DNA from: an uncultured beta proteobacterium | Lineage (GTDB): Bacteria > Pseudomonadota > Gammaproteobacteria > Burkholderiales > Rhodocyclaceae | Direction: 5' to 3' | NCBI GenBank assembly: GCA_903959855.1 | Contig: CAJBYR010000024.1 | Span: 1-53,260 of the forward strand | DNA length: 53,260 nt | Shown: piece by piece, positions 6,058-49,507 of the stretch | Position numbering within the stretch: position 1 is the first letter of the stretch | Layout of the letters: each line of letters opens with the position of its first letter | Notes under the pieces: generated by a model | What the model saw: the letters and a program-made list of their open reading frames with translations, nothing else | Databases searched by the model: none | Told to the model about the DNA's origin: nothing | Translations under genes and position numbers: made by a program

Positions 6058-6125
6058 GCGAGCAGGCAGCTGTAATTGTTTAATGCTCGTAATTGGTCCA
6101 GAGCTTCCAGTGTAAAGATATCAAT

Positions 6126-6929: not shown

Positions 6930-7055
6930 CCCCGATGGCCTTGCATTGCGCAACAAATGCAGGTGGAAACTCTTGTCGATCCGGCAGGAGCCAAATTGTG
7001 GCGAATCCAGACGCCAAAATCACTGAGTCGGGCGACCGACACTACGGGAGGAAAA

Positions 7056-7283
7056 ATGTGGTCACTTTCTGAAAATGCTGGTCCCATGTTCTTGCTGGTT
7101 TCCGCCTGCTTTACCATCGCCTGCTTTGTCGAGGTTCATACCCGGCTCAAGGAAAACGAAAGGGCAAAAGCCAAGCACGTCAAGAACGCGAGTGTGGAAC
7201 TTAGCATCAGGTCGCCGTTGATTCTCGCGCTTGTCAGTGGCTTGATATTCCTCATCACCTTGGTAAAGGTATCGATCAAATAG
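7056..7283 (+). CDS. small membrane protein, two predicted TM segments
   Basis: A 75-residue product not recognised. I chose the ATG at 7056 because GGGAGG ends 5 bases before it; the longer frame from 6957 lacks a ribosome-binding site. Hydrophobic stretches lie near residues 10-25 (PMFLLVSACFTIACFVEV) and 52-71 (LILALVSGLIFLITLV), joined by a basic loop, so both ends could face the same side. It follows the lipoprotein gene by 126 bases on the same strand. Confidence 0.5.
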   Translation: MWSLSENAGPMFLLVSACFTIACFVEVHTRLKENERAKAKHVKNASVELSIRSPLILALVSGLIFLITLVKVSIK

Positions 7284-7363
7284 CCGCTGTCTTTCTGGAT
7301 GCATGAAGAATCCAGAAAGGGTTCAGGCGCAAATCGGTCTTCACCGCTCAAGAAGGGAACCGC

Positions 7364-7477
7364 ATGATTGGACTGATCGTCATTTGTATGGGGGCAGTGA
7401 CGTTTGCCATGGGAGACCTGCTTATGGCTGCAGGTCTCATAGTTCTTGGTGTGATTCTTTTGTCGCGCGGGATATAG
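7364..7477 (+). CDS. 37-residue membrane peptide candidate
   Basis: A very short frame encoding an almost wholly hydrophobic peptide (MIGLIVICMGAVTF, then LIVLGVILLSRGI) with a single charged pair near the end. GAAGGGAA lies 4 bases before the ATG at 7364, a fair ribosome-binding site. It lies 80 bases after the two-TM gene on the same strand. Length and hydrophobicity fit small membrane peptides, including type I toxins, but there is no homology I recognise. Confidence 0.35.
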   Translation: MIGLIVICMGAVTFAMGDLLMAAGLIVLGVILLSRGI

Positions 7478-7528
7478 CGCTAACAAAGGAAAGAATGGGT
7501 GATTGACCGCCTGCAGGTTGGTTCGAGC

Positions 7529-12166: not shown

Positions 12167-12976
12167 CTAGGGGCTCAGCTTCGAAAGTCCTCCTGCCGCG
12201 GCGGCCTGCTCTGCACGCTCGAATCCGCCGTTGGCCGTGATCTCGGCGGCGATGGTGCGCAGCAGCGGCCGCAGTGCCGCTTCTTCCATGCCATGCACGA
12301 TGCGCGGATCGTAGAGCATCCTGAGCAACAGAACGTCCAGGCCGGTAAGGAACACGTCGGTCGAGTGATCGTTGAATACCGAGGGGAATACCTTGTCCGA
12401 ATCATTGGGCAGGCCCAGCACCTGGGTCAGTTCCTCGACGATGCAGGCCGGCAATTTGCCCCGCGCCCGCGCCCGATCCACCGGGATGATCACGACCGCG
12501 CGCGTGATGCGACCATTGCGTCGCGACGAGGCAAAGGTTCCCAGGCATACGGCTTCGCGAAAGAACTTGTCACGCTCGTCGGCGGAGTTCCAGCCGAAGT
12601 AGCGCTGAAAGTCGTCCTTCAGGCGCGATTCCGACGTCAGCACCACAAGGTAGTTGGCGGCATCGATACTGGCCGCCGGAGCGATGCTGAGGCCGGTAAG
12701 CCCGGCCAGGTGCGCGAAGTGCGTTTGGATCAGACGCTCATGCAGCGCTGAGTCGCCGGCGTGGTGGATCAGGGCATAGTGGATCGGCGTGGTCCATTTG
12801 CGCACCTGGCGGCGCTTGGCCTCATGTTCGCTACCGAGCGCGATGTCGACGAAGGCGTCGACCAGGTAGTCCGCGGATTTCCAGTGCGCGACATCCCCGG
12901 CACGTGCCGGCAGCGCCCCGAGCAGGACGATCAGCGCGACCAGGCAGGAAACGTGTCGCGCGGTTGATCCGCGCAC
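12167..12976 (-). CDS. DUF2927 domain protein, exported
   Basis: A 269-residue secreted protein. I prefer the GTG at 12976, one base after the stop of the SulP gene, because it puts a signal peptide (HVSCLVALIVLLGALPARA) near the N-terminus; an ATG at 13006 is an alternative. The C-terminal part has EELTQVLGLPNDSDKVFPSVFND and MLYDPRIVHGM, typical of DUF2927, a family of putative metal-dependent periplasmic proteins. It lies convergent with the CoA transferase, 13 bases apart. Cotranscription with the SulP transporter is likely. Confidence 0.75.
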   Translation of the reverse strand: MRGSTARHVSCLVALIVLLGALPARAGDVAHWKSADYLVDAFVDIALGSEHEAKRRQVRKWTTPIHYALIHHAGDSALHERLIQTHFAHLAGLTGLSIAPAASIDAANYLVVLTSESRLKDDFQRYFGWNSADERDKFFREAVCLGTFASSRRNGRITRAVVIIPVDRARARGKLPACIVEELTQVLGLPNDSDKVFPSVFNDHSTDVFLTGLDVLLLRMLYDPRIVHGMEEAALRPLLRTIAAEITANGGFERAEQAAAAGGLSKLSP

Positions 12977-35692: not shown

Positions 35693-36901
35693 CTATGTCA
35701 CGGAATCGTCGAGAAATAATGCCAGCAGGCGGTTGAGAAAGCGGCGTCCGCGCGGGGTCGGGCGCAGCCAGCCGTCGCTTGCTTCCAGCAGGCCGTCGCA
35801 CCGTGCCGCCAGCGCCGACTTCTCAATTTCCGCCAGGGGCAGACCGGTGCGTTCGACAAACAGGCTGGCCGGAAAGCCCTCGTTCAGCCGCAAGGCATTC
35901 ATCATGAACTCGCCGGGCAGATCATGCCGCGCGATGTCTTGCCGGGTGGCGATGAACTCGCCCCGCGCCGCTGCCTCAAGGTAGGCCTGCGGATGGCGCT
36001 GGCGGGTTTCGCGCCAGATGTGTTCGTGGTTCGAGAGCTTGCCGTGGGCGCCGGCGCCGATGCCGAGGTAGTCGCCGAAGGTCCAATAGTTGAGGTTGTG
36101 CCGGCAGCGCTGGCCCGGACGGGCAAAGGCCGAGGTTTCGTAATGCTCGAAGCCGGCTGCGGCCAGGCGTTCCTCGACCATTTCCTGCATGTCGGCGGCG
36201 AGGTCGTCGTCGGGTAAGGGAGGTGGCGAGTGGTGGAAAGCCGTGTTCGGCTCCAGCGTCAGGTGGTAAGCCGAGATGTGGCTGACACCGCCGGCGATCG
36301 CCGTGGCGATGTCGCGTTCGGCCTCCGACAGGGACTGCAGCGGCAGCGCGTACATGAGGTCGACATTGACGCGCTCGAAATGGCGTTGTGCCAGGGTGAT
36401 GGCGTAGTTCGCCTCGTTCGCGCTGTGGATGCGCCCCAGCGCGACAAGCTTGGAATCCTCGAAGCTTTGCACGCCGATCGACAAGCGCGTCACCCCGGCA
36501 GCGCGAAAGGCGGCAAATTTACCGGCCTCGGCCGTTCCGGGGTTGGCCTCCAGCGTGATCTCGGCATCAGGATGCAGCGGCAGGCGCATGCGGATCGCCG
36601 CCAGCAGGGCGTCGGCGGTGGCGGCAGACATCAGGCTGGGGGTGCCGCCGCCGATGAAGACGCTGCTCACCGGGCGGTTCCAGACCTGCGGCAACGCCGC
36701 TTCGAGGTCGGCGATCAGCGCGGCGAGATAGGCAGGCTCGTCGATCTCGCCACGGCTCTCATGCGAATTGAAGTCGCAGTAGGGACATTTGCGCACGCAC
36801 CACGGCCAATGCACATAGAGCGCCAGCGGTGGCGGTGCGGTGAGTCCGGAGGGGCTGTGGGACGGCGCTGGTGTCGCAGCGGCCGGTCGTATCGGGATCA
36901 C
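35693..36901 (-). CDS. hemW: radical SAM family heme chaperone HemW
   Basis: A 402-residue protein of the HemN-like family that binds heme and delivers it, for example to respiratory enzymes; it lacks coproporphyrinogen oxidase activity in studied members. The cluster motif CVRKCPYC lies in YVHWPWCVRKCPYCDF, followed by FIGGGTPSLM and GVQSFED. The start is the GTG at 36901, which overlaps the rdgB stop by four bases (GTGA). It ends the run of five overlapping or close genes. Confidence 0.93.
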   Translation of the reverse strand: MIPIRPAAATPAPSHSPSGLTAPPPLALYVHWPWCVRKCPYCDFNSHESRGEIDEPAYLAALIADLEAALPQVWNRPVSSVFIGGGTPSLMSAATADALLAAIRMRLPLHPDAEITLEANPGTAEAGKFAAFRAAGVTRLSIGVQSFEDSKLVALGRIHSANEANYAITLAQRHFERVNVDLMYALPLQSLSEAERDIATAIAGGVSHISAYHLTLEPNTAFHHSPPPLPDDDLAADMQEMVEERLAAAGFEHYETSAFARPGQRCRHNLNYWTFGDYLGIGAGAHGKLSNHEHIWRETRQRHPQAYLEAAARGEFIATRQDIARHDLPGEFMMNALRLNEGFPASLFVERTGLPLAEIEKSALAARCDGLLEASDGWLRPTPRGRRFLNRLLALFLDDSVT

Positions 36902-37488
36902 GCCCCGGCCCGCAGGCGGGCCAGTAGCTGCGCCAGTGCCTGGCCGCGATGCGAGCGGCGGTTCTTTTCTTCGTGCGGCAACTCGGCGACAGTCTGGCCC
37001 AGCTCGGGAATCAGGAAGTAGGGGTCGTAGCCGAAGCCGCCTTCGCCGCGCGGAAGGTCGACGATCTCGCCATGCCATTCGCCTTCGGCGACGATGGGTT
37101 GCGGATCGTCGGCATGGCGCATCAGCACCAGCACGGCGACATAGTGGGCGCGCCGGTCGGCAAGGCCGGCGAGTTCGGCGATCAGCCTGGCATTGTTGCG
37201 CGCATCGGACTTGGGTTCGCCGGCATAGCGCGCCGAGAACACTCCAGGGGCGCCGCCCAGCGCCGACACACACAGACCGGAATCATCGGCCAGCGCCGGC
37301 AGGCCGGTGAGTTGGGCCGCATGGCGCGCCTTGGCGATGGCATTCTCGACGAAAGTGACATGGGGTTCCTCGGCCTCGGGGACATTGAAGGCCGACTGTG
37401 GCAACACCTCGAAATCGAAAGGAGCCAGCAACTGGCCGAATTCGCGCAGCTTGCCGGCGTTGCCGGAAGCGAGGACGAGCTTTTTCAC
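36898..37488 (-). CDS. rdgB: XTP/dITP pyrophosphatase (house-cleaning)
   Basis: A 196-residue nucleotide-sanitising enzyme that hydrolyses ITP, XTP and their deoxy forms to keep them out of DNA and RNA. It shows KLVLASGNAGKLREF at the N-terminus, TFVENAIAKARHAA, ADDSGLCVSALGGAPG and FGYDPYFLIPE, the classic Ham1 motifs. It starts at GTG 37488. It overlaps hemW by four bases. A 112-base gap with a strong hairpin separates it from rph. Confidence 0.95.
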   Translation of the reverse strand: MKKLVLASGNAGKLREFGQLLAPFDFEVLPQSAFNVPEAEEPHVTFVENAIAKARHAAQLTGLPALADDSGLCVSALGGAPGVFSARYAGEPKSDARNNARLIAELAGLADRRAHYVAVLVLMRHADDPQPIVAEGEWHGEIVDLPRGEGGFGYDPYFLIPELGQTVAELPHEEKNRRSHRGQALAQLLARLRAGA

Positions 37489-37564
37489 GCGGCCACCGCC
37501 GGGCCGCCCCAAGGCGGACGCAAGCCATGAACCCGGAGCGAGCAACGCTCGCGAACCGTGATCA

Positions 37565-37585
37565 CCCCCTTCCACGGGAAGGGGG
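37565..37585. repeat. palindromic hairpin between rph and rdgB, related to the leuS repeat
   Basis: CCCCCTTCC and GGAAGGGGG form a perfect 9-bp stem with a 3-base loop, followed by G-rich sequence (GGGGGATGGGGGGATGG). The sequence resembles the arms of the palindromic element in leuS (41-144). Confidence 0.65.
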
Positions 37586-37600
37586 ATGGGGGGATGGCCG

Positions 37601-38329
37601 TCATATCACCAGCGCCGACTTCTGGGCCGCGACGATGTCGCCGATGCCTGCCGCGGCGAGACCGAGCAGGGTGTCGAGTTCGGCGCGCGAAAAAGGCGCG
37701 CCCTCGGCCGTGCCCTGCACTTCGATGATGCCGCCACCGGCCGTCATCACCACGTTCATGTCGGTGTCGCAGGCAGAGTCCTCGGCGTAGTCAAGGTCGA
37801 GCACGGGTATGCCCTCGACGATGCCGACCGAAACCGCGGCGACCAGTTCGCGCATCGGGTGGCGGGCCAGCTTGCCGGCCGCGACGAGCCTGGACAGTGC
37901 GTCGTGCAGCGCCACGCAGGCACCGCTGATCGAAGCGCAGCGCGTGCCGCCGTCGGCCTGTATGACATCGCAATCAAGCGTGATCTGGCGTTCGCCGAGC
38001 GCGCCGAGATCGGTGACCGCGCGCAGGCTGCGGCCGATCAGGCGCTGGATCTCCTGGGTGCGCCCCGATTGCTTGCCCTTGGCCGCCTCGCGGTCGGTGC
38101 GGGTGTTGGTCGAGCGCGGCAGCATGCCGTACTCGGCGGTCACCCAGCCCTGCCCCTTGCCCTTGAGGAAGGACGGTACCCGTTCTTCGATGCTGGCGGT
38201 GCACAGCACCTTGGTGTCGCCGAACTCAACCAGCACGCTGCCTTCGGCGTGGCGCGTGTAGTTGCGGGTGATGGTCAGGGGCCGCAGTTGCGCGGCCTCC
38301 CGGTTCTGGCGTTGCGGCGGGCGGTTCAT
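37601..38329 (-). CDS. rph: ribonuclease PH
   Basis: A 242-residue phosphorolytic exoribonuclease that trims the 3' ends of tRNA precursors. Family segments are [40 protein letters not shown] and [21 protein letters not shown]. The start ATG overlaps the stop of the PP2C gene by four bases (ATGA). rdgB follows, a common pairing in proteobacteria. Confidence 0.96.
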
Positions 38330-39222
38330 GGGGTGGCTCCGTTTGTGGTGTAAGGCAGGCGGCTGCGGATATCGGCGACGGCGCGGTCGATGTCGTCGTC
38401 GCTGATCGTGGGCAGCGCTTGCGGATCGGCTTCGCCGATCTGCAGGATGATCGTGTCACCGTCGGGATCAGGCGCCTCCCAGCGCATGGCGATCAGCGTC
38501 AGATTGTCGGCACCGGGACCGGCAGCGCGTTCGGCGGCGTCCAGCAGGTTGGGTACGGTGCTGGTCAGGGGCGAGCGTGCCAGCTCGGTTGCCAGCGCTT
38601 CGCCCAGGGGCGACCAGGCGCCGTCCGTGCAAAGCGCAATCAGGTCGCCATCCTGCAGCGGTGCCGGGTCCGAGAGCTCGATCTGCGGCTCGATGCTGCC
38701 GCCCAGGCAACTGAACACGCGATTGCGCATCGGATGGCTGGCGGCCTGCTCGCGGCTGATCATGCCATCGTCAACCAGACGCTGGACGACACTGTGGTCG
38801 CGGGTCTGCAACACGCGTTGGCGCCCGTCAGCGCGGCCATGAACCAGATAGAGCCGCGAGTCGCCGGCATGCGCCCAGGTCGCCTGGCCATCTTGCACGA
38901 TGCAGGCAATGCAGGTGGTGCGCGGCGCCGCGTGCTGTGCGATGCGGCAGTCGGCGGCATGGCGAACGATGCGCTCATGCGCATGGCGCAGCGCGTTGGC
39001 GAGGAATGTCGCTGGGTCGGTCAGGCGCGGCGCGGCTTCACGGCGGAAGCATTCGCCGATTATGTCGATGGCAAGCTGTGCCGCAATCTCGCCATGCAGG
39101 TGGCCGCCCATGCCGTCGGCGACGATCATCAGCACCGTATCCTCGGTGGCCAGCCAGGTGGCACGGTCCTGATTGATTTTGCGGCCGCCGATGCGGCTTT
39201 CCTGGGTGATGCTGTAGCTCAT
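38326..39222 (-). CDS. PP2C-family Ser/Thr protein phosphatase
   Basis: A 298-residue metal-dependent phosphatase. Motifs are NQDRATW (the first metal Asp), [23 protein letters not shown] and [12 protein letters not shown]. An acidic tail ([13 protein letters not shown]) follows the catalytic domain. I start at ATG 39222, which shares one base with the kinase stop, so the pair is translationally coupled and presumably acts on the same targets. Its stop overlaps the rph start. Confidence 0.92.
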
Positions 39223-40151
39223 CACCAGCCACGCAGGCCGATGCGCGAGAGCCAGGAGCCCGGCGGCTTGTCGGCGGCGGTATCGGTATTCAGCGAGGCT
39301 TGCAGCGCCCGCGCGTGCTGCGGACGCCGCGGCGGATCCAGCCGCAGGCATTCGTCGATGGTGGCCAGCAGGCGCGGCGAGTATTCCATGCCCCAGCGCT
39401 GACGCGCCGGCAGCATTTCGTCATCGGTGATGCGCTCGTCGGCGGCCTGTGGCGCGGATCCGGCGAGCGCCGCGTACATGCACGCGCCCACGGCATAGAT
39501 GTCGGTCCAGGGGCCAAGGGTGAACTTGCCGTGGTACTGCTCGGGCGCGGCATAGCCGGGCGTGTACATGGCGCGCGGCGCCGGCGGTCCGATGTCGACG
39601 GCGTAGCGCGCGGCACCGAAATCCAGCAGCACCGGGCTGCCATCGTCGCGCAACCAGATGTTGGCCGGCTTGATGTCGAGGTGGAGCAGGCCATGACCAT
39701 GGACTTCGCCGAGCCCGTCGAGCATGCCGCTGAACATCTTGCGCATGAAGGCCTCGCTGAGCCGGCCGCGATGCTGGCGGATGTGGTCGCGCAGCGTAAT
39801 GCCGGTCTCGAAGCGCATCACCAGGTACACGGTTTCGTTGGCGCGAAAAAAATTCAATACGCGCACCACGTTGGGGTGGTCCAGCCCGGTGAGTGTGCGA
39901 CCTTCTTCAAAAAAAAGCTTCAGGCCGTGGTTGAAGTCCGACTGGTGCTCGGGTGGTATGTCCGGCACGACTTCACCTTCGGTCCGCAACGCCAGCGAAT
40001 TGGGCATGTACTCCTTGATCGCCACCGGGATTCCGGCTGCATCGTGCGCCAGGTAGACGATGGAAAAGCCACCGATCGAAAGCTGTCTTTCGATGCGGTA
40101 GCCTTCCAGCTCGCAGCCGGGCGGCAAGGCATGATTGTTCTGGGAGACCAA
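39222..40151 (-). CDS. Ser/Thr protein kinase (Hanks type)
   Basis: A soluble kinase of about 310 residues. The Gly-rich loop is SIGGFSIVYLAH, the ATP-binding Lys is in VAIKEYMP, the catalytic loop is LLHLDIKPANIWL (Leu in place of the usual Arg), and DFGAAR is the metal site. PGYAAPEQY is the substrate-binding segment. There is no transmembrane or sensor domain. No ATG or GTG exists near the expected N-terminus; the TTG at 40151 is my best guess, and the true start is uncertain. Confidence 0.85.
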   Translation of the reverse strand: MVSQNNHALPPGCELEGYRIERQLSIGGFSIVYLAHDAAGIPVAIKEYMPNSLALRTEGEVVPDIPPEHQSDFNHGLKLFFEEGRTLTGLDHPNVVRVLNFFRANETVYLVMRFETGITLRDHIRQHRGRLSEAFMRKMFSGMLDGLGEVHGHGLLHLDIKPANIWLRDDGSPVLLDFGAARYAVDIGPPAPRAMYTPGYAAPEQYHGKFTLGPWTDIYAVGACMYAALAGSAPQAADERITDDEMLPARQRWGMEYSPRLLATIDECLRLDPPRRPQHARALQASLNTDTAADKPPGSWLSRIGLRGW

Positions 40152-40173
40152 AGTCGGATCGGCGCGGGCCGGT

Positions 40174-40182
40174 TGATATACT
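40174..40182 (+). promoter_or_regulatory. extended -10 promoter candidate for yicC
   Basis: TGATATACT fits TGnTATAAT and lies 75 bases before the yicC start, inside the leader region of the divergent kinase gene. It is identical to the motif before rpoD. The -35 region is weak. Confidence 0.45.
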
Positions 40183-40256
40183 GCCGTGATTTTCCTTGTT
40201 CGCCCGCACGCTGTAAACCACTGTAGCGGCGACTTTCCGGAGATACCCCCGAAATC

Positions 40257-41152: not shown

Positions 41153-41473
41153 ATGACGGCTACCGAAATCTGCATCGAGATCCATGCCGCCGCGCCGCCC
41201 AAACCCGCATTCGGGGCAGCCTGCAACGGATGCGGCGTATGCTGTGCCGCCGAACCCTGTCCGCTCAGCAGCCTTTTGCTCGGCCACCGCCGGGGCGCAT
41301 GTCCGGCGCTGACGTGGCGTGATCAGGACGGCCGCTATTTCTGTGGCATGGTCCTGGCGCCGGCCAGCCATTGCCACTGGCTGTCTGCGCGCCTGCAGCC
41401 ATGGGCGAGCCGCATGTGTCGCCGCTGGATCGCGGACGGCAAAGGTTGCGATTTCGATGCTGAGCTTTCCTGA
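41153..41473 (+). CDS. cysteine-rich putative metal-binding protein (YkgJ-like)
   Basis: A 106-residue protein with a dense Cys cluster near residues 24-36 (CNGCGVCCAAEPC) and further Cys at the C-terminus (SRMCRRWIADGKGCDF). It resembles the YkgJ cysteine-cluster family, thought to hold iron-sulfur or zinc. The function is unknown. It starts 20 bases after yicC and is probably cotranscribed. Four bases after its stop, the decayed Csp1-like fragment ends on the other strand. Confidence 0.6.
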   Translation: MTATEICIEIHAAAPPKPAFGAACNGCGVCCAAEPCPLSSLLLGHRRGACPALTWRDQDGRYFCGMVLAPASHCHWLSARLQPWASRMCRRWIADGKGCDFDAELS

Positions 41474-41476
41474 TGG

Positions 41477-41611
41477 TCAGGCGGCAATCAGCGTCTGATA
41501 CTTCGCGCCACCGCCGTGGTGGTGGTGATCCTGATCGGCAGCCTAAACGTCGGCGGCCAGACCGGTCAAAGCAATCCCGCCCAACGTGCCCAGCATTTCC
41601 CTGCGTTCCAT
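41477..41611 (-). pseudogene. remnant of a Csp1-like copper-storage protein
   Basis: From ATG 41611, with GGGAG before it, the frame reads a leader MERREMLGTLGGIALTG, then a TAG at codon 23 (41543-41545), then AADQDHHHHGGGAKYQTLIAA and a TGA at 41477-41479. The twin start MERRxML, the His cluster and the Y..LIAA segment match the N-terminus of four-helix-bundle copper-binding (Csp) proteins, normally about 130-150 residues. Two nonsense codons and the loss of the Cys-rich remainder show decay. The fragment directly follows exbD on the same strand. Confidence 0.6.
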
Positions 41612-41823
41612 GATCCGCTCCCGTTCTTGACCAAGATCGAATCATTCTTCCACATGGTTCTGCCGCCTGCGTGCCGGTTGCCCGCGCCTATCGTTTGCGC
41701 TCGGCAAACGGGTCCGAAAGCCGTTCGGAGGCCACAAATTCGTAGTCGGTGAGCCTCTCAAGAAAACAGTCTGGTCGTCGAACTCGGCATCTAAATCGTG
41801 ACCATGTCTTGCCGGCCGTCCCG
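41612..41823. other. intergenic stretch with no recognised gene
   Basis: Between the Csp1-like fragment and exbD I see no credible gene, terminator or repeat. Frames are broken by stops, which fits a decayed region. Confidence 0.5.
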
Positions 41824-42249
41824 CTAATTGTTGGACGCCGGATCGGTGATAAACCCGATACGCACCAGGCCGGCTTTTGCAGCCAGCGACATGACCTGAG
41901 CCACGCTTTCATAGCGGGCGTTGCGGTCGGCGCGAATATGCAGTTCCGGCTGCGGCTGTCTGGCGGAGGCGGTACTGAAGCGTTGCGGCAGTGTGGCCGG
42001 CGAGACGATCTCGCCATTCCAGTACAGGTCACCGTTCTCGCGCACGCCGAACTCGATGTGCTCGGGCTTGGTGATGTTGGCGCTGGATGATGCCTTGGGC
42101 AGGTCGATCTTTACCGAGTGCGTCAGGAGCGGTGCGGTAACGATGAAGATCACCAGCAGCACCAGCATCACATCGACCAGCGGCACCACGTTCATCTCGG
42201 CCATCGGCGCCTGGTGATTGCGCCCGTTGAAGCTGCCGATCGCCATCAT
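41824..42249 (-). CDS. exbD: ExbD/TolR-type proton-channel protein
   Basis: A 141-residue inner-membrane protein with one N-terminal transmembrane helix (MNVVPLVDVMLVLLVIFIV) that carries the conserved Asp (VDVML) of the proton path, and a periplasmic domain ending RIGFITDPASNN. With ExbB it energises TonB. The start overlaps the exbB stop by four bases (ATGA). Its neighbours tonB and a TonB-dependent receptor favour ExbD over TolR. Confidence 0.93.
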   Translation of the reverse strand: MMAIGSFNGRNHQAPMAEMNVVPLVDVMLVLLVIFIVTAPLLTHSVKIDLPKASSSANITKPEHIEFGVRENGDLYWNGEIVSPATLPQRFSTASARQPQPELHIRADRNARYESVAQVMSLAAKAGLVRIGFITDPASNN

Positions 42250-42947
42250 GCGGCTCCTGGTTCAGGGCCGACCGTGGTCAGCACATAGAGGTCGTGGGCG
42301 AAGGCGTCGAGCCGGGCCAGCCACATGCGGTTGCGGCGGTTGAAGGCGTTGTAGGCGAGCACGGCCGGGATCGCCACCGCCAGGCCCAGCGCCGTCATGA
42401 TCAGCGCCTCGCCGACCGGGCCGGCCACCTTGTCCAGCGTACCCTGGCCCGAGAGACCGATCTGCACCAGCGCGTGATAAATGCCCCACACGGTGCCGAA
42501 GAGACCGACGTAGGGCGCGGCCGAGCCGGCAGAGGCCAGCACGGTGAGGCCGTGCTCGCTGCGCGCTGCCTCGAGATCGATGCCGTTCCGCAGCACGCGC
42601 GTAAGGAACTCGCCGAGGCCGCCGGCGGCGGCCAGTCGCTGCGGGTGTCGGGCCTCGCTATCGGCTGCTGCCTTCAGAGCTGCCTCGGCCAACTCGGCGA
42701 AGGCGTTGTCGACAGGTCGCGCGGCGAGCACGTTGCGGACTTCGGTCAGCGACGGAGCGTTCCAGAACCTGGCGAGGAAGGCGTCTGCCCGTCGCTGCGC
42801 AAGGATATTGGCAATCGCGCGCGTGACGATCAGGTACCAGCTGGCCACCGAGAGCAGCAGCAGCGCGGCCAGTACCAGCTGGCCCATGCCATCGGCGTTG
42901 GCGAGGAAATGGGCGAAGCCCAGGGAGGTGGATACGTTGGCTTCCAT
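42246..42947 (-). CDS. exbB: ExbB-type proton-channel protein
   Basis: A 233-residue protein of the MotA/TolQ/ExbB family with three transmembrane helices. The segment GLTVLASAGSAAPYVGLFGTVWGIYHAL, split over the second helix, and GEALIMTALGLAVAIPAVLAYN are typical. It uses the proton gradient to drive TonB. It starts 2 bases after the tonB stop. Confidence 0.94.
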   Translation of the reverse strand: MEANVSTSLGFAHFLANADGMGQLVLAALLLLSVASWYLIVTRAIANILAQRRADAFLARFWNAPSLTEVRNVLAARPVDNAFAELAEAALKAAADSEARHPQRLAAAGGLGEFLTRVLRNGIDLEAARSEHGLTVLASAGSAAPYVGLFGTVWGIYHALVQIGLSGQGTLDKVAGPVGEALIMTALGLAVAIPAVLAYNAFNRRNRMWLARLDAFAHDLYVLTTVGPEPGAA

Positions 42948-42949
42948 GC

Positions 42950-43576
42950 TCAGTTTCCTTGGAGGACGAAGTTGAAGGCTTGCCGGGCGGTGGCGCGAAC
43001 CGCCTGCCCGTGGCGTTGCGCCGAAGTGCAGCGCCAGCGCCTGACGGCGGCCAGCGCCGCCTCGTCGAGACGCGGATGACCGCTGGATTCGAGGACCGTC
43101 GCCGCCGCCACCTGGCCCTTCTCGTCGAGTTCGACGTGGAGCAGCGCGGTACCGGTTTCATTGCGGCGGCGCGCGGCCAGGGGGTAATCGGGCGCGCTGC
43201 GCTCGGGACAGGCGACGGCCAGTTCGCCGGCGAGCCTGACCGGACCGGCAAGAGTCGGCGCCGGCGCCACGGCGGTCGCGGGCGCCGCAGGCAGCAACGG
43301 TGGCGCGGGATCTCCCGGCGCCGCGTGCGCCGGCGAACTGACGACCTCGCTCGGGCGCGGCGGCTCCGCGCGTTGCGTCCGTGGCTCGGCCGGCGCCAAG
43401 GGAACCGGGCGCGGCGCCACCGGCGCCTGCGGTGTGATCAGGTCCACGAACAGCGTCGGCGTCGACGGCGGCAATGCGATCAGGCGATAGCTCGCCAGCC
43501 CCCACAACGCGGCGGCGTGGAGCGCAGCCACCAGCAAGCCGCCTACCACATGCTCCGCGCGGATTTGCGTTTTCAT
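42950..43576 (-). CDS. tonB: energy-transducing TonB protein
   Basis: A 208-residue protein with one N-terminal transmembrane helix (VVGGLLVAALHAAALWGLASY), a Pro/Ala-rich periplasmic linker (residues 35-120) and a C-terminal TonB domain (YPLAARRRNETGTALLHVEL, then SGHPRLDEAALAAVRRWRC). It spans the periplasm and pulls on the plug of TonB-dependent receptors. The presence of a dedicated tonB-exbB-exbD set next to the receptor suggests they serve it. Confidence 0.92.
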   Translation of the reverse strand: MKTQIRAEHVVGGLLVAALHAAALWGLASYRLIALPPSTPTLFVDLITPQAPVAPRPVPLAPAEPRTQRAEPPRPSEVVSSPAHAAPGDPAPPLLPAAPATAVAPAPTLAGPVRLAGELAVACPERSAPDYPLAARRRNETGTALLHVELDEKGQVAAATVLESSGHPRLDEAALAAVRRWRCTSAQRHGQAVRATARQAFNFVLQGN

Positions 43577-43587
43577 GGCAAAGCATT

Positions 43588-44085
43588 TCACGGATGGAGG
43601 AGGGCGCGCAAGGCGCCGGCCGGCGGAGCGCCGTTGAAGTAGCGCGGCCCGCCGCCGGCCGGCAGCAGGACCACGTAAGGCGTCAGGCCGCGCCAGTCCG
43701 GATTGACGCGGTAGCGCAGGTTGACGGCATCGCCGTCGAAGGCATGGAGCGCGTCGGCCTGGCGATAATGCCGGTCGGCGAGCAGCTCCGCTTCCTGGCC
43801 GGCGCCATCCATCACCACCACGACCAGCCGTGGCTTCAGCGCCGACTTGCGCAAACTCGTGGCGAGGCCGTCGATGACGGCCGGGCAATGGCTGCAATCC
43901 GTGGTCGAGAAGACGACGACCTGCGGCTTCGCGCCGGCGCGTTGCAGGTCGCCCCAGGTTTGCGGGCCGAATGGCTGCACGGTTGCGGGCGCGGCGAGAG
44001 GGCCGGCGGAGGTGGACAGCAGCGCGGCGCCGAAAGCGAAGCGGCCCGCGCGCAGGGCGGATTCAAGGCTGGATCGGAAGGACAT
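43588..44085 (-). CDS. thioredoxin-like exported protein
   Basis: A 165-residue protein with a hydrophobic N-terminus (FAFGAALLSTSAGPLA) and a thioredoxin-like domain. The redox motif is CSHC (Cys64, Cys67) in FSTTDCSHCPAVIDGL. It may reduce or metallate a periplasmic partner such as the Cys-rich beta-propeller encoded just upstream, whose 3' end it overlaps by 23 bases. It lies 11 bases before tonB. Confidence 0.7.
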   Translation of the reverse strand: MSFRSSLESALRAGRFAFGAALLSTSAGPLAAPATVQPFGPQTWGDLQRAGAKPQVVVFSTTDCSHCPAVIDGLATSLRKSALKPRLVVVVMDGAGQEAELLADRHYRQADALHAFDGDAVNLRYRVNPDWRGLTPYVVLLPAGGGPRYFNGAPPAGALRALLHP

Positions 44086-45280
44086 GGATTTCCTTTGCGG
44101 TACGCCACAGCACGCGCATCCCGGCGGGAGTCGCGAGCAGGCGCGGGTGGTCGTTTTCCTCGCTGCTGGAAGCCAGCTCGCGCAGGGTGAAATTGGCACC
44201 GCCGTCGGTCGACAGCCAGGCGCGCAAGCGCATGCGCTCGCCGTCGAAGCTGCGCCAGGCGATGGCAACCCTTTCGCCGGCGGCCAGCACGTCGGCATGC
44301 TCGGCGCGCGCATCGGGCAGTTCCCGCGCCGCGTCCTGCGGCCTGCCGTCGGCGGCGAGTTGGCCGTAGCGCACGGCGGCACGGCCGGCCCTCTCGCCGA
44401 ACCAGACGGCGTGGTAGCCACCGTGCGCCGCCGGTGCCAGGCCGGGACCGTGGTGCGGGCAGGCGTCGAGCTTCCAGTCGTCGACACTGGCCCGCACCGG
44501 ATTCGCAACGGTGCCGCCGAGGATGGCGAAGGCATGGTCGCGGATGTTGGGTGCGAACACATGGCGCCACATCGCCGCCACGCCGCCCTCGGGCGTGGGT
44601 GCCAGCGCGACGCGGCAGCATTCGCAACTGTGGTCGGCGACTTTGAGGTCGGGGCCGAAACTGCGTCCGCCGTCGCGCGATTCGTTGCGATAGATCGCCG
44701 CGCCGCGATAGCCGCCGCGCTTGCTGTCGCCACCCGCGTCACGCGTCGCCTGCGCCTGGTCGCGCTTGTCGATCCATACGGTATGCAGCACGCCGCGCGC
44801 GTCGAAGGCGATCGCCTCGAAGCGGTGGGTGATCACCTGGCGGTCCCGATGCACCGTGAAGGGCGGCGAAAAACTGGTGCCGCCATCCTCCGAACGCAGC
44901 ATGCGGATTTCCCCGGTGTAGGGTTTGGCCAGCGGCTGGGTGTAGGAAATGACGGCGCGATTATCCGGGCCGAAGGCGATTTTCGGCCGGTTCTCGCCGT
45001 CGGCCGCCACCGTGTCACTGCCGATGTCGAGCAGGCGCGGCTCGCTCCAGCGCTGCCCCGCGCCGCCACCGGTCTGGACGAACAGGCGTCGTTCGTGATC
45101 GAGGCCGACGATCCAGAGCTGCCCGGCCGGCGATACGGCGGCGCCGATCGACAGCGCGGGCTTGGCCCGCATCGCGTCCCTGGCTTTGGTCACCAGCGGC
45201 GCGCCGACCGCATGCTCGTGTTGTGCCGCCAGCGGGCCGGCACAACACAGCAGCGCGAGCGCAAGGGCGCGGCCTACCAT
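44063..45280 (-). CDS. sialidase-like beta-propeller with a CxCC motif, exported
   Basis: A 405-residue secreted protein (signal peptide MVGRALALALLCCAGPLAAQ). Asp-box-like repeats (SEDGGTSFSPPF, SRDGGRSFGPDL, STDGGANFTLRE) point to a six-bladed sialidase-type propeller. A Cys-Glu-Cys-Cys motif (HSCECCRVAL, about residues 217-222) and a C-terminal His are candidate copper ligands. No sialidase catalytic Arg triad or Tyr/Glu pair is evident, so glycosidase activity is doubtful. The start overlaps the receptor stop by seven bases. Confidence 0.75.
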   Translation of the reverse strand: MVGRALALALLCCAGPLAAQHEHAVGAPLVTKARDAMRAKPALSIGAAVSPAGQLWIVGLDHERRLFVQTGGGAGQRWSEPRLLDIGSDTVAADGENRPKIAFGPDNRAVISYTQPLAKPYTGEIRMLRSEDGGTSFSPPFTVHRDRQVITHRFEAIAFDARGVLHTVWIDKRDQAQATRDAGGDSKRGGYRGAAIYRNESRDGGRSFGPDLKVADHSCECCRVALAPTPEGGVAAMWRHVFAPNIRDHAFAILGGTVANPVRASVDDWKLDACPHHGPGLAPAAHGGYHAVWFGERAGRAAVRYGQLAADGRPQDAARELPDARAEHADVLAAGERVAIAWRSFDGERMRLRAWLSTDGGANFTLRELASSSEENDHPRLLATPAGMRVLWRTAKEIHVLPIQP

Positions 45281-47418
45281 TTCGCCTCCAAGCCGACTTG
45301 CAGGCTGCGCGGCAGGCCGGGCGAGGCGACCGGCACCCCGGACGAGATGCTGGAACTGTCGGCGTAGCGCTTGTCGGCAAGGTTGTTCACGCTGGCGGAA
45401 ATGCGCAACTGCTTGCCCAGGTCCATGCCGCCGCGCAGGTTGAGCAGGTCGTGGCCGTCGTAGCGGCTGGTGTTGGCGTCGTCGCGCCAGTAGGCGCCGA
45501 TGTGAGTCCATTCCAGCTGCAGGCTTGTCCCCTCGCCCGGCATCCAGATCAGGCGGGTATTCGCCAGCGAGCGAGGGGCGGCCGCCATCTCCTTGCCGGA
45601 CAGGCTGGCGCTGCCGGGCACCACCCATTCCTTGTAGTTGTGGCGCGCCGTCGACAGCGCGATGTCGGCGCGCCAGGCCTTGCCCAGCGGAATGCCGATT
45701 GCTGCCTCGATGCCGCGATGGCGCGTGCTGCCGTTGTTGGAGCTCGAGCGCACATTGGTCACCGGATCGGTATAGGTCAGGATGTCGTCCGACTTGACCA
45801 GCTCATAGGCCACCACGTCGTAACTGATGCCGGCGGCGCGCCCGCGCAGACCGATCTCGGCCTGGTCGCCCTTCACGGGTTTGAGCGTCAGCGCCGACTG
45901 CGCGGCCAGCGCCGCCTGGCCGGCAGTGACCCCGGCGCCGGTCGACGGCCGGAACAGATCGCCCTCCGAGGGCGCGCGGAAACTGTGGTTGAGCGAGCCG
46001 TAGAGGTGGGTGTCCCTGTCCAGCGCATAGGTGGCGCCGAACTTCGGGCTGAGGTGGTCGTAGTTGATCGAGGTGTTTCCCGCCTGGCCGTACTGGTTGG
46101 TGGCGAGCACGCTGCCGGCGGCAAAGTTGTTCTCGAACTTGAAACCGACATGGTCGTGGCGCAGGCCGGCGGAAAGCCGCAGGCGCTCGGTCGGGCTGTA
46201 CTCGCCGTGGATATAGGGCGAGATTCCGTGGAAGCTGACCTTGTAGTCATAGACCCGAGCCCCGACGGTGTAGGCACTGTAGATGCGCGAGGCGCCGGCG
46301 CCGGTGACCGTCGCGTTGATGCGGTCCTCCTTGCGCGCGCCGGGGCTGTTCTCCAGGTCGATGCCGACGATCAGCCGGGCGCGGCGCTGGTCGTAATCCT
46401 GGCGCCACTTGAGCTGCACCCCGTAGGACTGGTTGCTGCTGTAGGAGATGGTGTTGTCGCCGGTGGCGCCCGAGGTCAGCTTGAACGAGGCCAGCAGGTC
46501 CATGCTGTTGTCTCGGTAGTAGGGCGTAATCGAAATCAGGCTGTCGCCCGCCTCGCGCTCCCAGGCGGCGGACAGGCGCGTGGCGCTGACCTTGCGGAAG
46601 GCGATCGGCTTGTAGTTGCGCGTCGGGTTGTCGAGGTAGTCGCTCATGACCAGCGGCGAGTTGGCGCCGGTTTCCTGGTCGATTGCGGTGCTGGAAAACA
46701 CCGTCTTGAGCACGGTGTTGGCATCGATCGCCCGATCCCAGCGCGCGGTCACGCTCTGCCGGTCATAGGCAGTCTTGCTGCGCCAGCCGTCGCTGTGGGT
46801 AAGGTTGGCGTTGGCGATCACGCCGTTGTCGCCGGCAGTGGTGCCGGCGCTGCCCAGCAAGCGTTTCCAGCCGAAGCTGCCAGCCTCGCCGAACAGCGAG
46901 ACCTCCGGCGCGTCCGGCGGTTTGCGGGTGAGCACGTTGACCGCGCCGCCGATCGCGTCGGAGCCGTAAAGGGCCGTCGTCGGGCCGCGATTGACTTCGA
47001 TGCCGCCGGCCTGCGGCAGGTTGATTTCGTAGAGCGCGTTGTGGTTGAAAAAGCCCGTCGAGCGGATCGGGATGCCGTCTTCGAGAAAGAGGTAGACCGG
47101 CGCCGTGGTGAAGGGTTGGCGGATCGCCGTGTTGTGGCCTTCGCCGTTGGTGACGCCGGCGGCGGCGCCGGGCACCTGGCTGAGGATCTGCGAGGGATGG
47201 GAGGGCTTGACCAGCCTGACGGCATCCTCGCCGACGATGCCGATCGAGGCCGGCGTGCGGTCGAGGCTCTGGCCCTCGCGGGTACCGGTGACCGTGATGT
47301 CGGGGAGCGCGGCCTGCTGCGCGATTGCGGGCAAGGCGGCAGCGGAAAAGGCCGCGGCCAGCGCCAGGGCCAAGGGGTGGCGCCGCGCCGCGAGCGGCGC
47401 AAAAACTGGAAGTTGCAT
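45274..47418 (-). CDS. TonB-dependent outer-membrane receptor
   Basis: A 714-residue barrel with a signal peptide (LALALAAAFSAAALPAIA), a TonB box (LPDITVTGTREGQSL), a plug domain (ILSQVPGAAAGVTNGEGHNT, GIEVNRGPTTALYGSDAIGG) and a beta-barrel ending in an aromatic residue (GLEAKW). The ATG at 47418 follows AGGAGT. Copper chaperone and DUF2946 neighbours make a copper or copper-complex ligand the best guess, but no siderophore or copper motif in the sequence proves it. Its ribosome-binding site can pair with the end of the upstream gene. Confidence 0.92.
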   Translation of the reverse strand: MQLPVFAPLAARRHPLALALAAAFSAAALPAIAQQAALPDITVTGTREGQSLDRTPASIGIVGEDAVRLVKPSHPSQILSQVPGAAAGVTNGEGHNTAIRQPFTTAPVYLFLEDGIPIRSTGFFNHNALYEINLPQAGGIEVNRGPTTALYGSDAIGGAVNVLTRKPPDAPEVSLFGEAGSFGWKRLLGSAGTTAGDNGVIANANLTHSDGWRSKTAYDRQSVTARWDRAIDANTVLKTVFSSTAIDQETGANSPLVMSDYLDNPTRNYKPIAFRKVSATRLSAAWEREAGDSLISITPYYRDNSMDLLASFKLTSGATGDNTISYSSNQSYGVQLKWRQDYDQRRARLIVGIDLENSPGARKEDRINATVTGAGASRIYSAYTVGARVYDYKVSFHGISPYIHGEYSPTERLRLSAGLRHDHVGFKFENNFAAGSVLATNQYGQAGNTSINYDHLSPKFGATYALDRDTHLYGSLNHSFRAPSEGDLFRPSTGAGVTAGQAALAAQSALTLKPVKGDQAEIGLRGRAAGISYDVVAYELVKSDDILTYTDPVTNVRSSSNNGSTRHRGIEAAIGIPLGKAWRADIALSTARHNYKEWVVPGSASLSGKEMAAAPRSLANTRLIWMPGEGTSLQLEWTHIGAYWRDDANTSRYDGHDLLNLRGGMDLGKQLRISASVNNLADKRYADSSSISSGVPVASPGLPRSLQVGLEAKW

Positions 47419-47424
47419 CGGTAA

Positions 47425-47490
47425 CTCCTGAAATGGATCGAACAAGGCGCCCGGACAAGCCATCCGGACGGAAGGCGCAGGTTTCAGGAG
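47425..47490. promoter_or_regulatory. inverted repeat that could hide the receptor ribosome-binding site
   Basis: CTCCTGAAA (47425-47433) and TTTCAGGAG (47482-47490) are perfect reverse complements. In the minus-strand mRNA, the downstream arm contains the AGGAG of the receptor gene and the upstream arm contains the stop codon of the DUF2946 gene. Base pairing would block initiation unless ribosomes finishing DUF2946 open it. Confidence 0.55.
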
Positions 47491-47861
47491 CGAACGGGTG
47501 GCGCGCGCGGCTGCGGTGTGCCGCGATGCTTGATCCGGTTTGGTGGATCGCGCGGGGAATCGGCCGGCGACGTCTGGGTGCCGCCTCCGACCGGGAGCGC
47601 GTAGTTTGGCGACACAAGTCCATACGGGTGGTTGCTTCCGGCGCACCAGGGGCAATGCTTGATGCCGTGCTCCGTCTGCCGGTGGTCGCCGGGCGGCATT
47701 TCGGCATTTGGCGGTACACCCGTCGCGGTGCAGATTTCGGACCACGGCGCGGCGCGGTCGGAGCCTGCCGCGAGGGCTTGTGCCAGCGTCGGCGCGAGCG
47801 CTGCCAGAAGGATCGCGAAAGTCGCGATCCAGGCGGTGAAGCGCCGGCAGGTGAATCTCAT
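47484..47861 (-). CDS. DUF2946 protein
   Basis: A 125-residue protein with a hydrophobic N-terminus (WIATFAILLAALAPTLAQALA) and the DUF2946 features WSEICTATG and HCPWC. The family is often found beside TonB-dependent copper receptors and copper chaperones, so a role in copper handling is inferred. The C-terminal part is Pro-rich. It starts 19 bases after the PCu(A)C stop. Its stop lies in the inverted repeat described above. Confidence 0.75.
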   Translation of the reverse strand: MRFTCRRFTAWIATFAILLAALAPTLAQALAAGSDRAAPWSEICTATGVPPNAEMPPGDHRQTEHGIKHCPWCAGSNHPYGLVSPNYALPVGGGTQTSPADSPRDPPNRIKHRGTPQPRAPPVRS

Positions 47862-47880
47862 CGCAAGTAGGCTGTTACGT

Positions 47881-48342
47881 TCAATGCTTGTGCTGCTGAT
47901 CCATCTTGGCGGGAGCTGCGGCGGTTAGCGGCTTGACTGTGGCCTTGACCTCGATCGTGCTGCGCTTCTTGTCTTTGCCTTCGACCACCAGCGTCAGCGG
48001 CACGCTGTCGCCTTCCTTCATCTGCTGCTTGAGGTCCATCAGCATGACGTGATAGCCACCGGGTTTGAGTTCGACGCTCTTGCCGGCCGGCAGGTCGAGA
48101 CCCTTGACGGCACGCATCTTCATGACGTCCTTTTCCATGATCATTTCATGCACCTCGACCACGCCGGCGACCGGCGATTTGGCCTCGACCAGGCGTGCGT
48201 CCTGATCCGAGGTGATCTGCATGAAGGCGCCGGTGGCCTTCTGCGCCGATACGGTGGCGCGCACCCAGGGGTCCTTGACGGTGACCTGGGCCATGACGGG
48301 GAAAGCGGCGAAAATCAGTGCGGCGAGTGTGAGGCGTTTCAT
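47881..48342 (-). CDS. PCu(A)C periplasmic copper chaperone
   Basis: A 153-residue periplasmic protein with a signal peptide (MKRLTLAALIFAAFPVMA). The copper(I) site follows the family formula H-x10-M-x21-H-x-M exactly: His65, Met76, His98 and Met100. Such proteins hand copper to the CuA or CuB centre of cytochrome oxidase or keep it in the periplasm. A clear ribosome-binding site AAGGAG precedes the ATG at 48342. A His-rich end (QQHKH) may add a second copper site. Confidence 0.93.
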   Translation of the reverse strand: MKRLTLAALIFAAFPVMAQVTVKDPWVRATVSAQKATGAFMQITSDQDARLVEAKSPVAGVVEVHEMIMEKDVMKMRAVKGLDLPAGKSVELKPGGYHVMLMDLKQQMKEGDSVPLTLVVEGKDKKRSTIEVKATVKPLTAAAPAKMDQQHKH

Positions 48343-48380
48343 GTGTGCTCCTTGCGAGTGATGTTGGAGTTGCGGATTGA

Positions 48381-48977
48381 CTAGATTGCGAATGCCGGGT
48401 CGGCGCCGGGCAGTACCAGCCCGCGCCGGTGCCCATGTCGCTGCAGTATGCCCATGCGCCGCAGGCGGCTCATGGCGCGCGATACCGTGGCTTCGGTAAG
48501 GTTGGTGATCGCCGCCATGTCGCGCAGTTCGGGAATGGTGATCTCCCTGCGGCCGTCGTCGCGGTAACGCGCCAGCAGCAGGCACAGGCGGCGCACGCGC
48601 TCGAATGCTTCGCCGGCGCGCAATGCCAGGGCGTCGGCGGCACGTCGCTCGGCGCCAGCCAGCGTCTGCAGCAGGCTCTCGCCGGAGAGTGTGGTGCCGG
48701 CCGAGAGCCAGGGTTCCAGTTCGCAGTCACCGATGGCGGAGGCTTCAAAGCTATAGCGGCCGTAGAGCAGGGTTTCGGCGCCGATGACGTCGCCGCGCAA
48801 GGCCAGTCCGGCGTAATCGCTGCCTTCGGGAGTGACGCGGTCAAGCCGCACGGCGCCGCTCTTTACCCGCCAGGCGATGCCTTCCGAGCCGGCGACATAG
48901 ATACGCTCGCCGATCGATATCCTGAGTGATCGCGGCGTCGAACTTGCGGACACCGGTGTTGTCGAGATTGCTTGCAT
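48381..48977 (-). CDS. Crp/Fnr-family transcription regulator
   Basis: A 198-residue regulator, shorter than classic Crp (210). The N-terminal effector domain (SLRISIGERIYVAGSEGIAW) keeps the fold, but the Fnr Cys set is absent. The C-terminal winged helix is ITIPELRDMAAITNLTEATV followed by SRAMSRLRRMGILQRHG; the position of the Fnr recognition Glu is Ala. A good ribosome-binding site GAGGAGCAG lies before ATG 48977. It probably controls the adjoining metal genes. Confidence 0.88.
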   Translation of the reverse strand: MQAISTTPVSASSTPRSLRISIGERIYVAGSEGIAWRVKSGAVRLDRVTPEGSDYAGLALRGDVIGAETLLYGRYSFEASAIGDCELEPWLSAGTTLSGESLLQTLAGAERRAADALALRAGEAFERVRRLCLLLARYRDDGRREITIPELRDMAAITNLTEATVSRAMSRLRRMGILQRHGHRRGLVLPGADPAFAI

Positions 48978-49062
48978 GATCCTGCTCCTCGTTCGTCGTC
49001 GATGCGCCCGGTTTCAGGCAGGCGCGACTGGTTCCGCCGCGGGGCGACGGATTGTGGAGGGG

Positions 49063-49455
49063 TCAGGCCGCAGGCGGGCCGCGCGGCGGGTGCGACAGCC
49101 GCGCAATGGTCGACGGGAAGGGGAAGGGGCTGCTGAAAAAAATGCTGTCGAAAGTCGGCGCCGGCGGCACGCCGAGCGTGGCGTCGGCGAGCAGCACCGG
49201 CGTGCCGGTAAGGCACAACGAACAGCAATCCTGATGGCCGCTGTCGGGCAGCGCGGGCTGGCCGGACCGGCTTGCCGGATCTACCCTGCCGGCCGGCCGG
49301 CTGGTGCAGATCTCCGCGCGAAAGTCGCCGCCTGCGGCATTGCGCGGCATGATCCCGCTGCCGCCGATGGCCTGCATCGCCATGGCGAACAAGGCAATGG
49401 CGAACAGCCAGGCAGGCGATTGACGAAACGGGCGGAGGGAGGCGGAGCGATGCAT
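49063..49455 (-). CDS. second DUF2946 protein
   Basis: A 130-residue protein with a hydrophobic segment (AWLFAIALFAMAMQAIGG), the family sequence FRAEICTS and a DCCSLC motif, corresponding to HCPWC in the other copy. It is read first in the minus-strand cluster. No ribosome-binding site lies before ATG 49455, so the start is uncertain or the mRNA is nearly leaderless. It is divergent from gmk. Confidence 0.65.
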   Translation of the reverse strand: MHRSASLRPFRQSPAWLFAIALFAMAMQAIGGSGIMPRNAAGGDFRAEICTSRPAGRVDPASRSGQPALPDSGHQDCCSLCLTGTPVLLADATLGVPPAPTFDSIFFSSPFPFPSTIARLSHPPRGPPAA

Positions 49456-49464
49456 TGGCCGCGT

Positions 49465-49470
49465 ATACTA
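49465..49470 (-). promoter_or_regulatory. possible -10 box of the DUF2946 gene
   Basis: On the minus strand the bases read TAGTAT, four of six matches to TATAAT. Their centre lies about 33 bases from the centre of the FNR-like box, the spacing expected for activation from position -41.5. On the plus strand TATACT (49464-49469) could instead be a -10 box of gmk. Confidence 0.35.
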
Positions 49471-49493
49471 GTACAGTCGCCGCCCGTGCGGGA

Positions 49494-49507
49494 TTGATCT
49501 AACTCAA
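49494..49507. promoter_or_regulatory. FNR/Dnr-like binding site
   Basis: TTGAT-CTAA-CTCAA matches the palindromic FNR consensus TTGATnnnnATCAA at nine of ten positions. It lies between the divergent DUF2946 and gmk genes, 39 bases before the DUF2946 start and 12 before gmk. Confidence 0.5.

Follow-up and report, generated by a model that had tools for sequence, protein, structure and literature searches.

A putative copper-import operon with a propeller–thioredoxin pair at the site of CrtA and PepSY_TM in an uncultured member of the Rhodocyclaceae

A stretch of 53,260 nucleotides (hereafter the window) from an uncultured betaproteobacterium of the family Rhodocyclaceae (GenBank assembly GCA_903959855.1, contig CAJBYR010000024.1) carries, between yicC and gmk, ten intact genes on the minus strand in the order DUF2946–Crp/Fnr–PCuAC–DUF2946–TonB-dependent receptor (TBDT)–propeller–thioredoxin–TonB–ExbB–ExbD (49455 to 41824). 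In another genome of the same genus (G022, locus L196) the same yicC–gmk site is occupied by DUF2946–Crp–PCuAC–DUF2946–CrtA–PepSY_TM–TonB–ExbB–ExbD, with CrtA and PepSY_TM standing exactly where the window has its receptor, propeller and thioredoxin. TonB-dependent import of copper for haem-copper oxidases is well supported, and two strong haem-copper oxidase (COX1) genes were found in the host genome. The explanation of the whole that we favour, with somewhat better than even confidence, is an import operon induced by copper shortage, in which the propeller would bind copper, the thioredoxin would supply electrons to the propeller cysteines and Cu(I) would pass to PCu(A)C. The features are listed below; uORF denotes an upstream open reading frame.

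49063-49455, minus strand: DUF2946, putative CruR-like uORF 1 (PF11162, 30.3 bits, cut-off 23.7; CSLC; C-terminal RGPP)
48381-48977, minus strand: Crp/Fnr-family regulator (PF13545 HTH_Crp_2, 32.2 bits, cut-off 27; PF00027 cNMP_binding, 27.8 bits, cut-off 27.5)
47881-48342, minus strand: PCu(A)C periplasmic copper chaperone (PF04314, 139 bits; exact H-x10-M-x21-H-x-M)
47484-47861, minus strand: DUF2946, putative CruR-like uORF 2 (PF11162, 61.0 bits, cut-off 23.7; CPWC; C-terminal RAPPVRS)
45274-47418, minus strand: TonB-dependent outer-membrane receptor (PF00593 barrel, 141 bits; PF07715 plug, 48.5 bits)
44063-45280, minus strand: exported beta-propeller (CECC 219-222; CPHHG 274-278; His-containing N-terminal tail; from model and alignment)
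43588-44085, minus strand: thioredoxin-like protein (C64-S-H-C67; WRGLTP loop; from model and Foldseek)
42950-43576, minus strand: dedicated TonB (PF03544, 74.8 bits)
42246-42947, minus strand: dedicated ExbB (PF01618, 111 bits)
41824-42249, minus strand: dedicated ExbD (PF02472, 108 bits)
41477-41611, minus strand: broken short reading frame, outside the conserved operon; identity as Csp1 unsupported

From the receptor through ExbD, neighbouring genes overlap or lie at most 11 nt apart, an operon-like arrangement. The Crp/Fnr gene had no NCBIfam match over cut-off and is hence assigned to no named subfamily. An earlier reading of this DNA from its letters and open reading frames (the sequence-only reading) had listed the same genes in this order on one strand, and Pfam matches, motifs and models bore the list out for all ten: the exact PCu(A)C motif was found, the CxCC propeller has CECC and is a beta-propeller by AlphaFold and Foldseek, the thioredoxin-like protein has CSHC and a TlpA/ResA/CcmG-like thioredoxin fold by the same tools, and TonB, ExbB and ExbD of the locus's own match PF03544, PF01618 and PF02472.

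The yicC–gmk site

CrtA has been shown to bring in chelated copper for the haem-copper oxidases of Bordetella pertussis (PMC12914433; this and the other papers are cited for the excerpts available). A PepSY_TM partner occurs in more than 75% of crtA loci, and PCuAC and TonB-ExbBD occur in some crtA operons (PMC12914433). The PepSY_TM protein of the CrtA operon, CrpH, was proposed in 2026 from mutant phenotypes, its role as a reductase being the authors' speculation (PMC13038864). The L196 receptor matches the crystallised CrtA (9RVQ) from end to end, with 917 bits (E 6e-275), and the gene behind it encodes PepSY_TM (44.1 bits, cut-off 28.8). By this swap the place of a suspected copper reductase is taken by the propeller–thioredoxin pair together with receptors of its own. 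The copper uptake that had been read from the window alone gains strong support from the presence of CrtA and PepSY_TM at the same site in a genome of the same genus.

The two versions were found apart within the genus: among 31 genomes the propeller was present in 15 and CrtA (E <= 1e-60) in 5, and none had both. A PepSY_TM gene follows within 60 nt of CrtA in all five. In G029 PepSY_TM was also observed beside TonB–ExbB–ExbD, at a contig end downstream of yicC. A second swap was detected in a genome of another family (G041), with one CrtA-like receptor followed by PepSY_TM and a second followed by a CSCC propeller. In Ideonella sp. A 288 (L050), the propeller has a CrtA-like receptor and a CrpH-like PepSY_TM gene upstream of it, at a distance of 6 to 10 kb; the two versions can therefore coexist in one locus.

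It had been suggested that the copper locus was inserted between yicC and gmk. The interruption is real, since 9 and 17 nt separate the matches to yicC and gmk in L141 and L142, which come from two further genera of the family, but it is not one block. In the window's genus PCuAC lies between the two genes in all 17 stretches showing both, whereas the propeller cassette is present in only five and CrtA–PepSY_TM in one; the insertion of a single block was rejected on these counts. The other eleven have PCuAC without either version, with or without DUF2946, Crp and a small YkgJ-like gene, and profiles found in them no receptor, propeller, thioredoxin, TonB–ExbBD or CrpH-like gene. In four of the eleven the 3 kb adjoining yicC are occupied by a large unrelated gene. 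A protein of 999 residues, of GGDEF/EAL-type sensory appearance by eye, separates yicC from the copper genes in L196 (9236-12235) and also in L194, L199, L209 and L210, so the site takes up other genes too.

Several features of the surroundings were noted in passing. A small Cys-rich protein, YkgJ-like by eye, is encoded after yicC (41153-41473, plus strand) and is kept in several relatives of the genus. Genes for a PP2C-like phosphatase and a protein-kinase-like protein, both so named by eye, run divergently from yicC (38326-40250, minus strand) and keep this position in the relatives examined. The G+C content in 1.5-kb windows is 66-70% over 42001-49500 and 63-64% in the adjoining windows; 36001-39000 is likewise rich (67-69%). 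At 6001-7500 the G+C content falls to 51%, against 61-70% elsewhere, and this segment is possibly foreign DNA.

CruR-type reading frames and divergent receptors

In B. pertussis the nascent CxxC of the DUF2946 protein CruR senses copper; copper bound there relieves an arrest at the C-terminal RAPP, upon which Rho halts transcription ahead of the receptor gene (PMC9426467). Because they combine a CxxC with R[A/G]PP, both DUF2946 genes of the window look like copper-sensing regulatory uORFs of the CruR type and not like copper carriers; the sequence-only reading had listed them in a copper uptake and handling locus, and the regulatory assignment fits them better than one as copper-handling proteins. 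CSLC and a C-terminal RGPPAA (the RGPP variant) are found in uORF 1, CPWC and a C-terminal RAPPVRS in uORF 2. Related loci have the CxxC in 101 of 108 DUF2946 frames, and 101 of the 108 end in RAPP (50) or RGPP (51). Long gaps have been reported after CruR, for example 162 bp in B. pertussis (PMC9426467); those of the window, 85 nt after uORF 1 and 65 nt after uORF 2, are shorter. The 3' end of uORF 2 together with the 65-nt gap before the receptor gene reaches a C/G ratio of 2.0 in its best 78 nt, which ranks above 99% of windows when both strands of the whole 53 kb are counted. Such a C-rich stretch would be expected of a Rho site but is suggestive only.

The window receptor matches 9RVQ with only 54 bits, compared with 917 bits for the L196 receptor, and is 27% identical to L196 CrtA over 310 residues. 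Its identification as CrtA was rejected, given the lack of full-length similarity to 9RVQ and of a PepSY_TM partner; no PepSY_TM match was found in the window's genome. OprC was rejected as well, with TIGR01778 scoring 30.7 bits against a cut-off of 472.45. None of seven cassette receptors scanned against NCBIfam reached a cut-off, the highest scores of the window receptor, all below cut-off, being to siderophore and haem receptor models. The receptors of three other cassettes are likewise not CrtA, the best reaching 62.8 bits to 9RVQ and that of L039 giving no listed match; the best match of the L044 receptor among solved structures is a PQQ receptor (97 bits).

Comparison within the genus covered the window and eight cassettes whose propeller is complete. 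The propellers are 59-80% identical, and three classes of receptor can be told apart. The first comprises the window, L018 and L021 (81-84% alike); L013, L014, L016, L017, L019 and L032 form the second (76-88% alike, about 50% to the first); L015 and L020, the third, share 58% and show only partial alignment with the others, mostly at 21-30%. When 87 receptors adjacent to the cassette were grouped at 40% identity, the groups held 35, 19, 17, 10, 2, 2, 1 and 1 members. Judged from these alignments, the receptors diverge into several groups while the propeller–thioredoxin pair stays.

L021 is a second DUF2946-DUF2946-TBDT-propeller copy in the window's own genome (contig C230, 8137-12291), and may be a real locus, a strain mixture or a misassembly; its propeller match ends after residue 332 of 405. 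Beside this truncated propeller, at 12235-12291 and on the strand opposite to that in the window, lies the sole fragment similar to the broken frame at 41477-41611. The frame itself consists of a signal-like stretch of 22 codons, a stop, a His-rich stretch of 21 codons and another stop. It had been read as a remnant of a Csp1-like gene; this was rejected after four tests that gave no support. DUF326 had no match in any of the 31 genomes of the genus, a search of the Protein Data Bank (PDB) found no Csp1, and the gaps beside exbD in two relatives held no Csp1-like reading frame.

The propeller and the thioredoxin

Neither protein had a Pfam match above cut-off or an NCBIfam match at E 0.1. AlphaFold2 models, built from alignments in which homologues of the genus were joined by more distant ones, gave a beta-propeller (pLDDT 81.7) and a thioredoxin fold (pLDDT 85.3). 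Foldseek placed Photorhabdus lectins first and sialidases lower down for the propeller; the Pfam model BNR_2 scores 17.4 bits against it, below the cut-off of 31.4, although the fold is sialidase-like. For the thioredoxin-like protein, Foldseek returned secreted TlpA/CcmG/ResA-type proteins (E 3.9e-5 to 1LU4, 1.9e-4 to CcmG), and fold, CxxC (CSHC) and the WRGLTP proline loop, presumably the cis-Pro loop, are all as in TlpA/ResA-like proteins. No match of the propeller to DUF4374, the family of XusB, was found in Pfam at E 0.1, and its N terminus has no lipobox as read by eye, without a predictor.

When eleven propellers were aligned, many of the invariant residues were found to cluster at DGE 94-96, HRF 152-154, DHSCECCR 216-223 and CPHHG 274-278. 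Together with AEHAD (326) and NDHPR (376), these motifs lie at or just before strands of the model, some 50-70 residues apart, and they probably occupy an equivalent place in successive blades, around one mouth of the central channel. Scanning of named genomes yielded 372 propeller relatives, of which the nearest 80 were examined, so the co-occurrence figures describe near relatives. Both CPHHG and CECC are present in 80 of the 80; ADHSCECC was one of two search patterns, so the count for CECC is partly a product of selection, from which that for CPHHG is free. At least two His residues within about 26 residues after the signal peptide, whose end was set by a heuristic cut and not by a predictor, were found in 61 of the 80 and in 13 of 16 divergent propellers. 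A CxxC was present in all 81 thioredoxin rows.

The thioredoxin accompanies the propeller in 80 of the 80 loci, 79 times as a separate gene and once (L066) in a single reading frame with it. Within 7 kb of the propeller, with short contigs counted as misses, a receptor was found in 78, DUF2946 in 65, PCuAC in 36 and TonB–ExbBD in 9. Across 112 loci (1.70 Mb, some overlapping) all 109 matches to a thioredoxin profile, itself grown on these loci, lie directly behind the propeller and none elsewhere. In an even draw of 398 genomes across the phylum the propeller occurred in 17, including the window's own (12 of 213 genera), and 14 neighbourhoods were obtained from 13 of the other 16 genomes. Eleven of these are CECC or CQCC loci, drawn from seven families; in each the thioredoxin is present and a receptor lies nearby, with DUF2946 in eight and PCuAC in six. 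The remaining three, and L027, have more distant propellers (CDCC, CSCC, CACC) beside DUF2946 and a receptor, without such a thioredoxin. A search for the gene set across genomes had been proposed as a check on the sequence-only reading; the core of receptor, propeller and thioredoxin recurs beyond chance.

Distant homologues are annotated as "sialidase family protein". Two on Roseobacteraceae plasmids, from Roseobacter litoralis and Sulfitobacter (L158, L159), are CSCC propellers so annotated in copper loci with multicopper oxidases, a response regulator and DsbA-family proteins, one of them also with CopC and CopD. No plasmid carriage of close propeller relatives was found; the 44 plasmid records were distant homologues, none covering 80% of the query. 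Cultured carriers of the cassette include Azohydromonas australica DSM 1124 (L044) and Comamonas granuli NBRC 101663 (L090). The cassette is also carried by a metagenome-assembled record titled Bordetella parapertussis (L061), a title that looks doubtful.

The set, and the pair above all, had been thought undescribed. We found no description of the pair in the literature searched, a body that lies outside preprints and most subscription journals, nor in the available excerpts of PMC9426467, PMC12914433, PMC13038864, PMC9104804, PMC12617631, PMC13142918 and PMC6769254; in genomes it is common, as the counts above show. Roy et al. list AhpC_TSA genes in cruR operons (PMC9426467), and these may include such thioredoxins. 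Bradyrhizobium blr7088 was considered as a known member and rejected, only bsr7087–blr7088 being given as an operon in the excerpt of PMC9104804.

Proposed mechanism, rival explanations and known systems

In the mechanism that we favour, the operon would be switched on by copper shortage, the two CruR-type uORFs shutting it when copper is plentiful. The dedicated TonB-ExbB-ExbD would drive the outer-membrane receptor, which would import a copper chelate. The exported propeller would bind periplasmic copper through its His-containing tail and the CxCC and CPHH of adjacent blades, and its thioredoxin-like partner would give electrons to the propeller cysteines, copper leaving as Cu(I) and reaching the haem-copper oxidases by way of PCu(A)C. 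A redox role of the pair is suggested by the CxxC of the partner protein, by cysteine conservation and by the exchange of the pair for a suspected reductase; on this sequence evidence the pair probably takes copper from the imported chelate by thiol-driven reduction. We propose more tentatively that it is a second, unrelated periplasmic machine for copper release, a thiol-driven reductase that can be exchanged for the haem-dependent PepSY_TM reductase proposed in CrtA operons, with several receptor groups bringing it different copper chelates.

A number of observations weigh against this reading. The mutual exclusion of CrtA and the propeller has a one-sided Fisher value of about 0.026, from a small sample of incomplete genomes with kinship ignored, and one of the 15 propeller genomes (G007) has a PepSY_TM gene elsewhere. 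The propeller has no sequence relative in the PDB, and the co-occurrence figures come from near relatives. Homologous sets do occur without copper genes nearby, which had been named in advance as a finding that would speak against copper: 12 of the 80 relatives have neither DUF2946 nor PCuAC in the vicinity, the sequence reaching 10 kb upstream of the propeller in six of these; when nine of the twelve were searched by motif, nothing resembling an overlooked DUF2946 turned up. In L079 propeller and thioredoxin occur with no receptor detected by profile. The distant propellers of L027, L190, L191 and L192 (motif not found in the last) are without the thioredoxin, so it is not required across the whole propeller superfamily.

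The main rival, which we consider unlikely, is that the propeller is a non-redox binder of copper chelates (chalkophores) like XusB, with the thioredoxin only keeping its cysteines, or those of PCuAC or Sco, reduced. XusB, a propeller of seven blades, acts together with a TonB receptor and an inner-membrane protein of the PepSY type (PMC13142918), and the exported propeller with its often His-rich tail, constant while the receptors vary, would suit such a role. However, XusB is a surface lipoprotein, and no lipobox was seen in the window propeller. The constant CxxC partner, fused once, also speaks against a plain binder, and the pair takes the place of PepSY_TM, not of an additional binder.

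It is improbable that the propeller is a customer of the system, a copper-dependent enzyme supplied through the receptor whose site is built with PCuAC and the thioredoxin. Copper sites are matured by TlpA/Sco-type thioredoxins, and the conserved Cys and His motifs of the propeller would fit this explanation, but replacement of the propeller by PepSY_TM with CrtA in L196 is not predicted for an end-product enzyme, and no catalytic family scored over cut-off. Very improbable in our view is the import of iron or another ligand with the copper genes as bystanders. The sub-cut-off scores of the receptor to siderophore and haem models, the PQQ match in L044 and the twelve relatives lacking DUF2946 and PCuAC nearby point that way; the CruR-type uORFs on the window operon, DUF2946 in 65 of the 80 relatives, the CrtA swap and the distant propellers in copper loci point to copper. 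A glycan-uptake locus whose propeller acts on glycans, as a sialidase or otherwise, is hardly credible: the annotation of distant homologues and the Foldseek order of lectins and sialidases suggest it, but BNR_2 stays below cut-off, many of the invariant residues form Cys/His/Arg motifs and the context is one of copper.

The release of copper from imported chelates in the bacterial periplasm is a step still unexplained. If the cassette independently replaces the CrpH step, the question becomes testable with two unrelated parts. The signature of CruR, receptor, CxCC propeller and CxxC thioredoxin would single out several unnamed groups of receptors as likely to take up copper; a 2019 survey of betaproteobacterial copper proteins omitted TonB receptors for want of such a signature (PMC6769254). 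A likely role would also be given to a protein family whose distant members are annotated as sialidases.

Among known systems, cruR-crtA-crpH of B. pertussis (PMC9426467, PMC12914433, PMC13038864) shares with the window a DUF2946 uORF followed by a TonB-dependent receptor and a periplasmic or membrane handling step. The window differs in its receptor, which is not CrtA, in its propeller and thioredoxin for PepSY_TM, in having two uORFs and in its Crp/Fnr gene. The PcuB/PcuC copper-starvation operon of Bradyrhizobium and TccA/PccA of Caulobacter (PMC12617631) likewise serve cytochrome oxidase through a TonB receptor and a PCuAC protein, the latter with the same PCuAC motif; the propeller–thioredoxin pair is not mentioned in the excerpt of that source. 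XusABC of Bacteroides (PMC13142918) also comprises a TonB receptor, a seven-bladed propeller and a reductase, but it serves iron, its propeller is a DUF4374 surface lipoprotein with no sequence relation to that of the window seen (no PDB match), and its reductase is a PepSY protein. OprC (TIGR01778) is, like the proposed window receptor, a TonB-dependent copper receptor found at times behind DUF2946 (PMC9426467), from which the window receptor is set apart by its score of 30.7 bits against 472.45.

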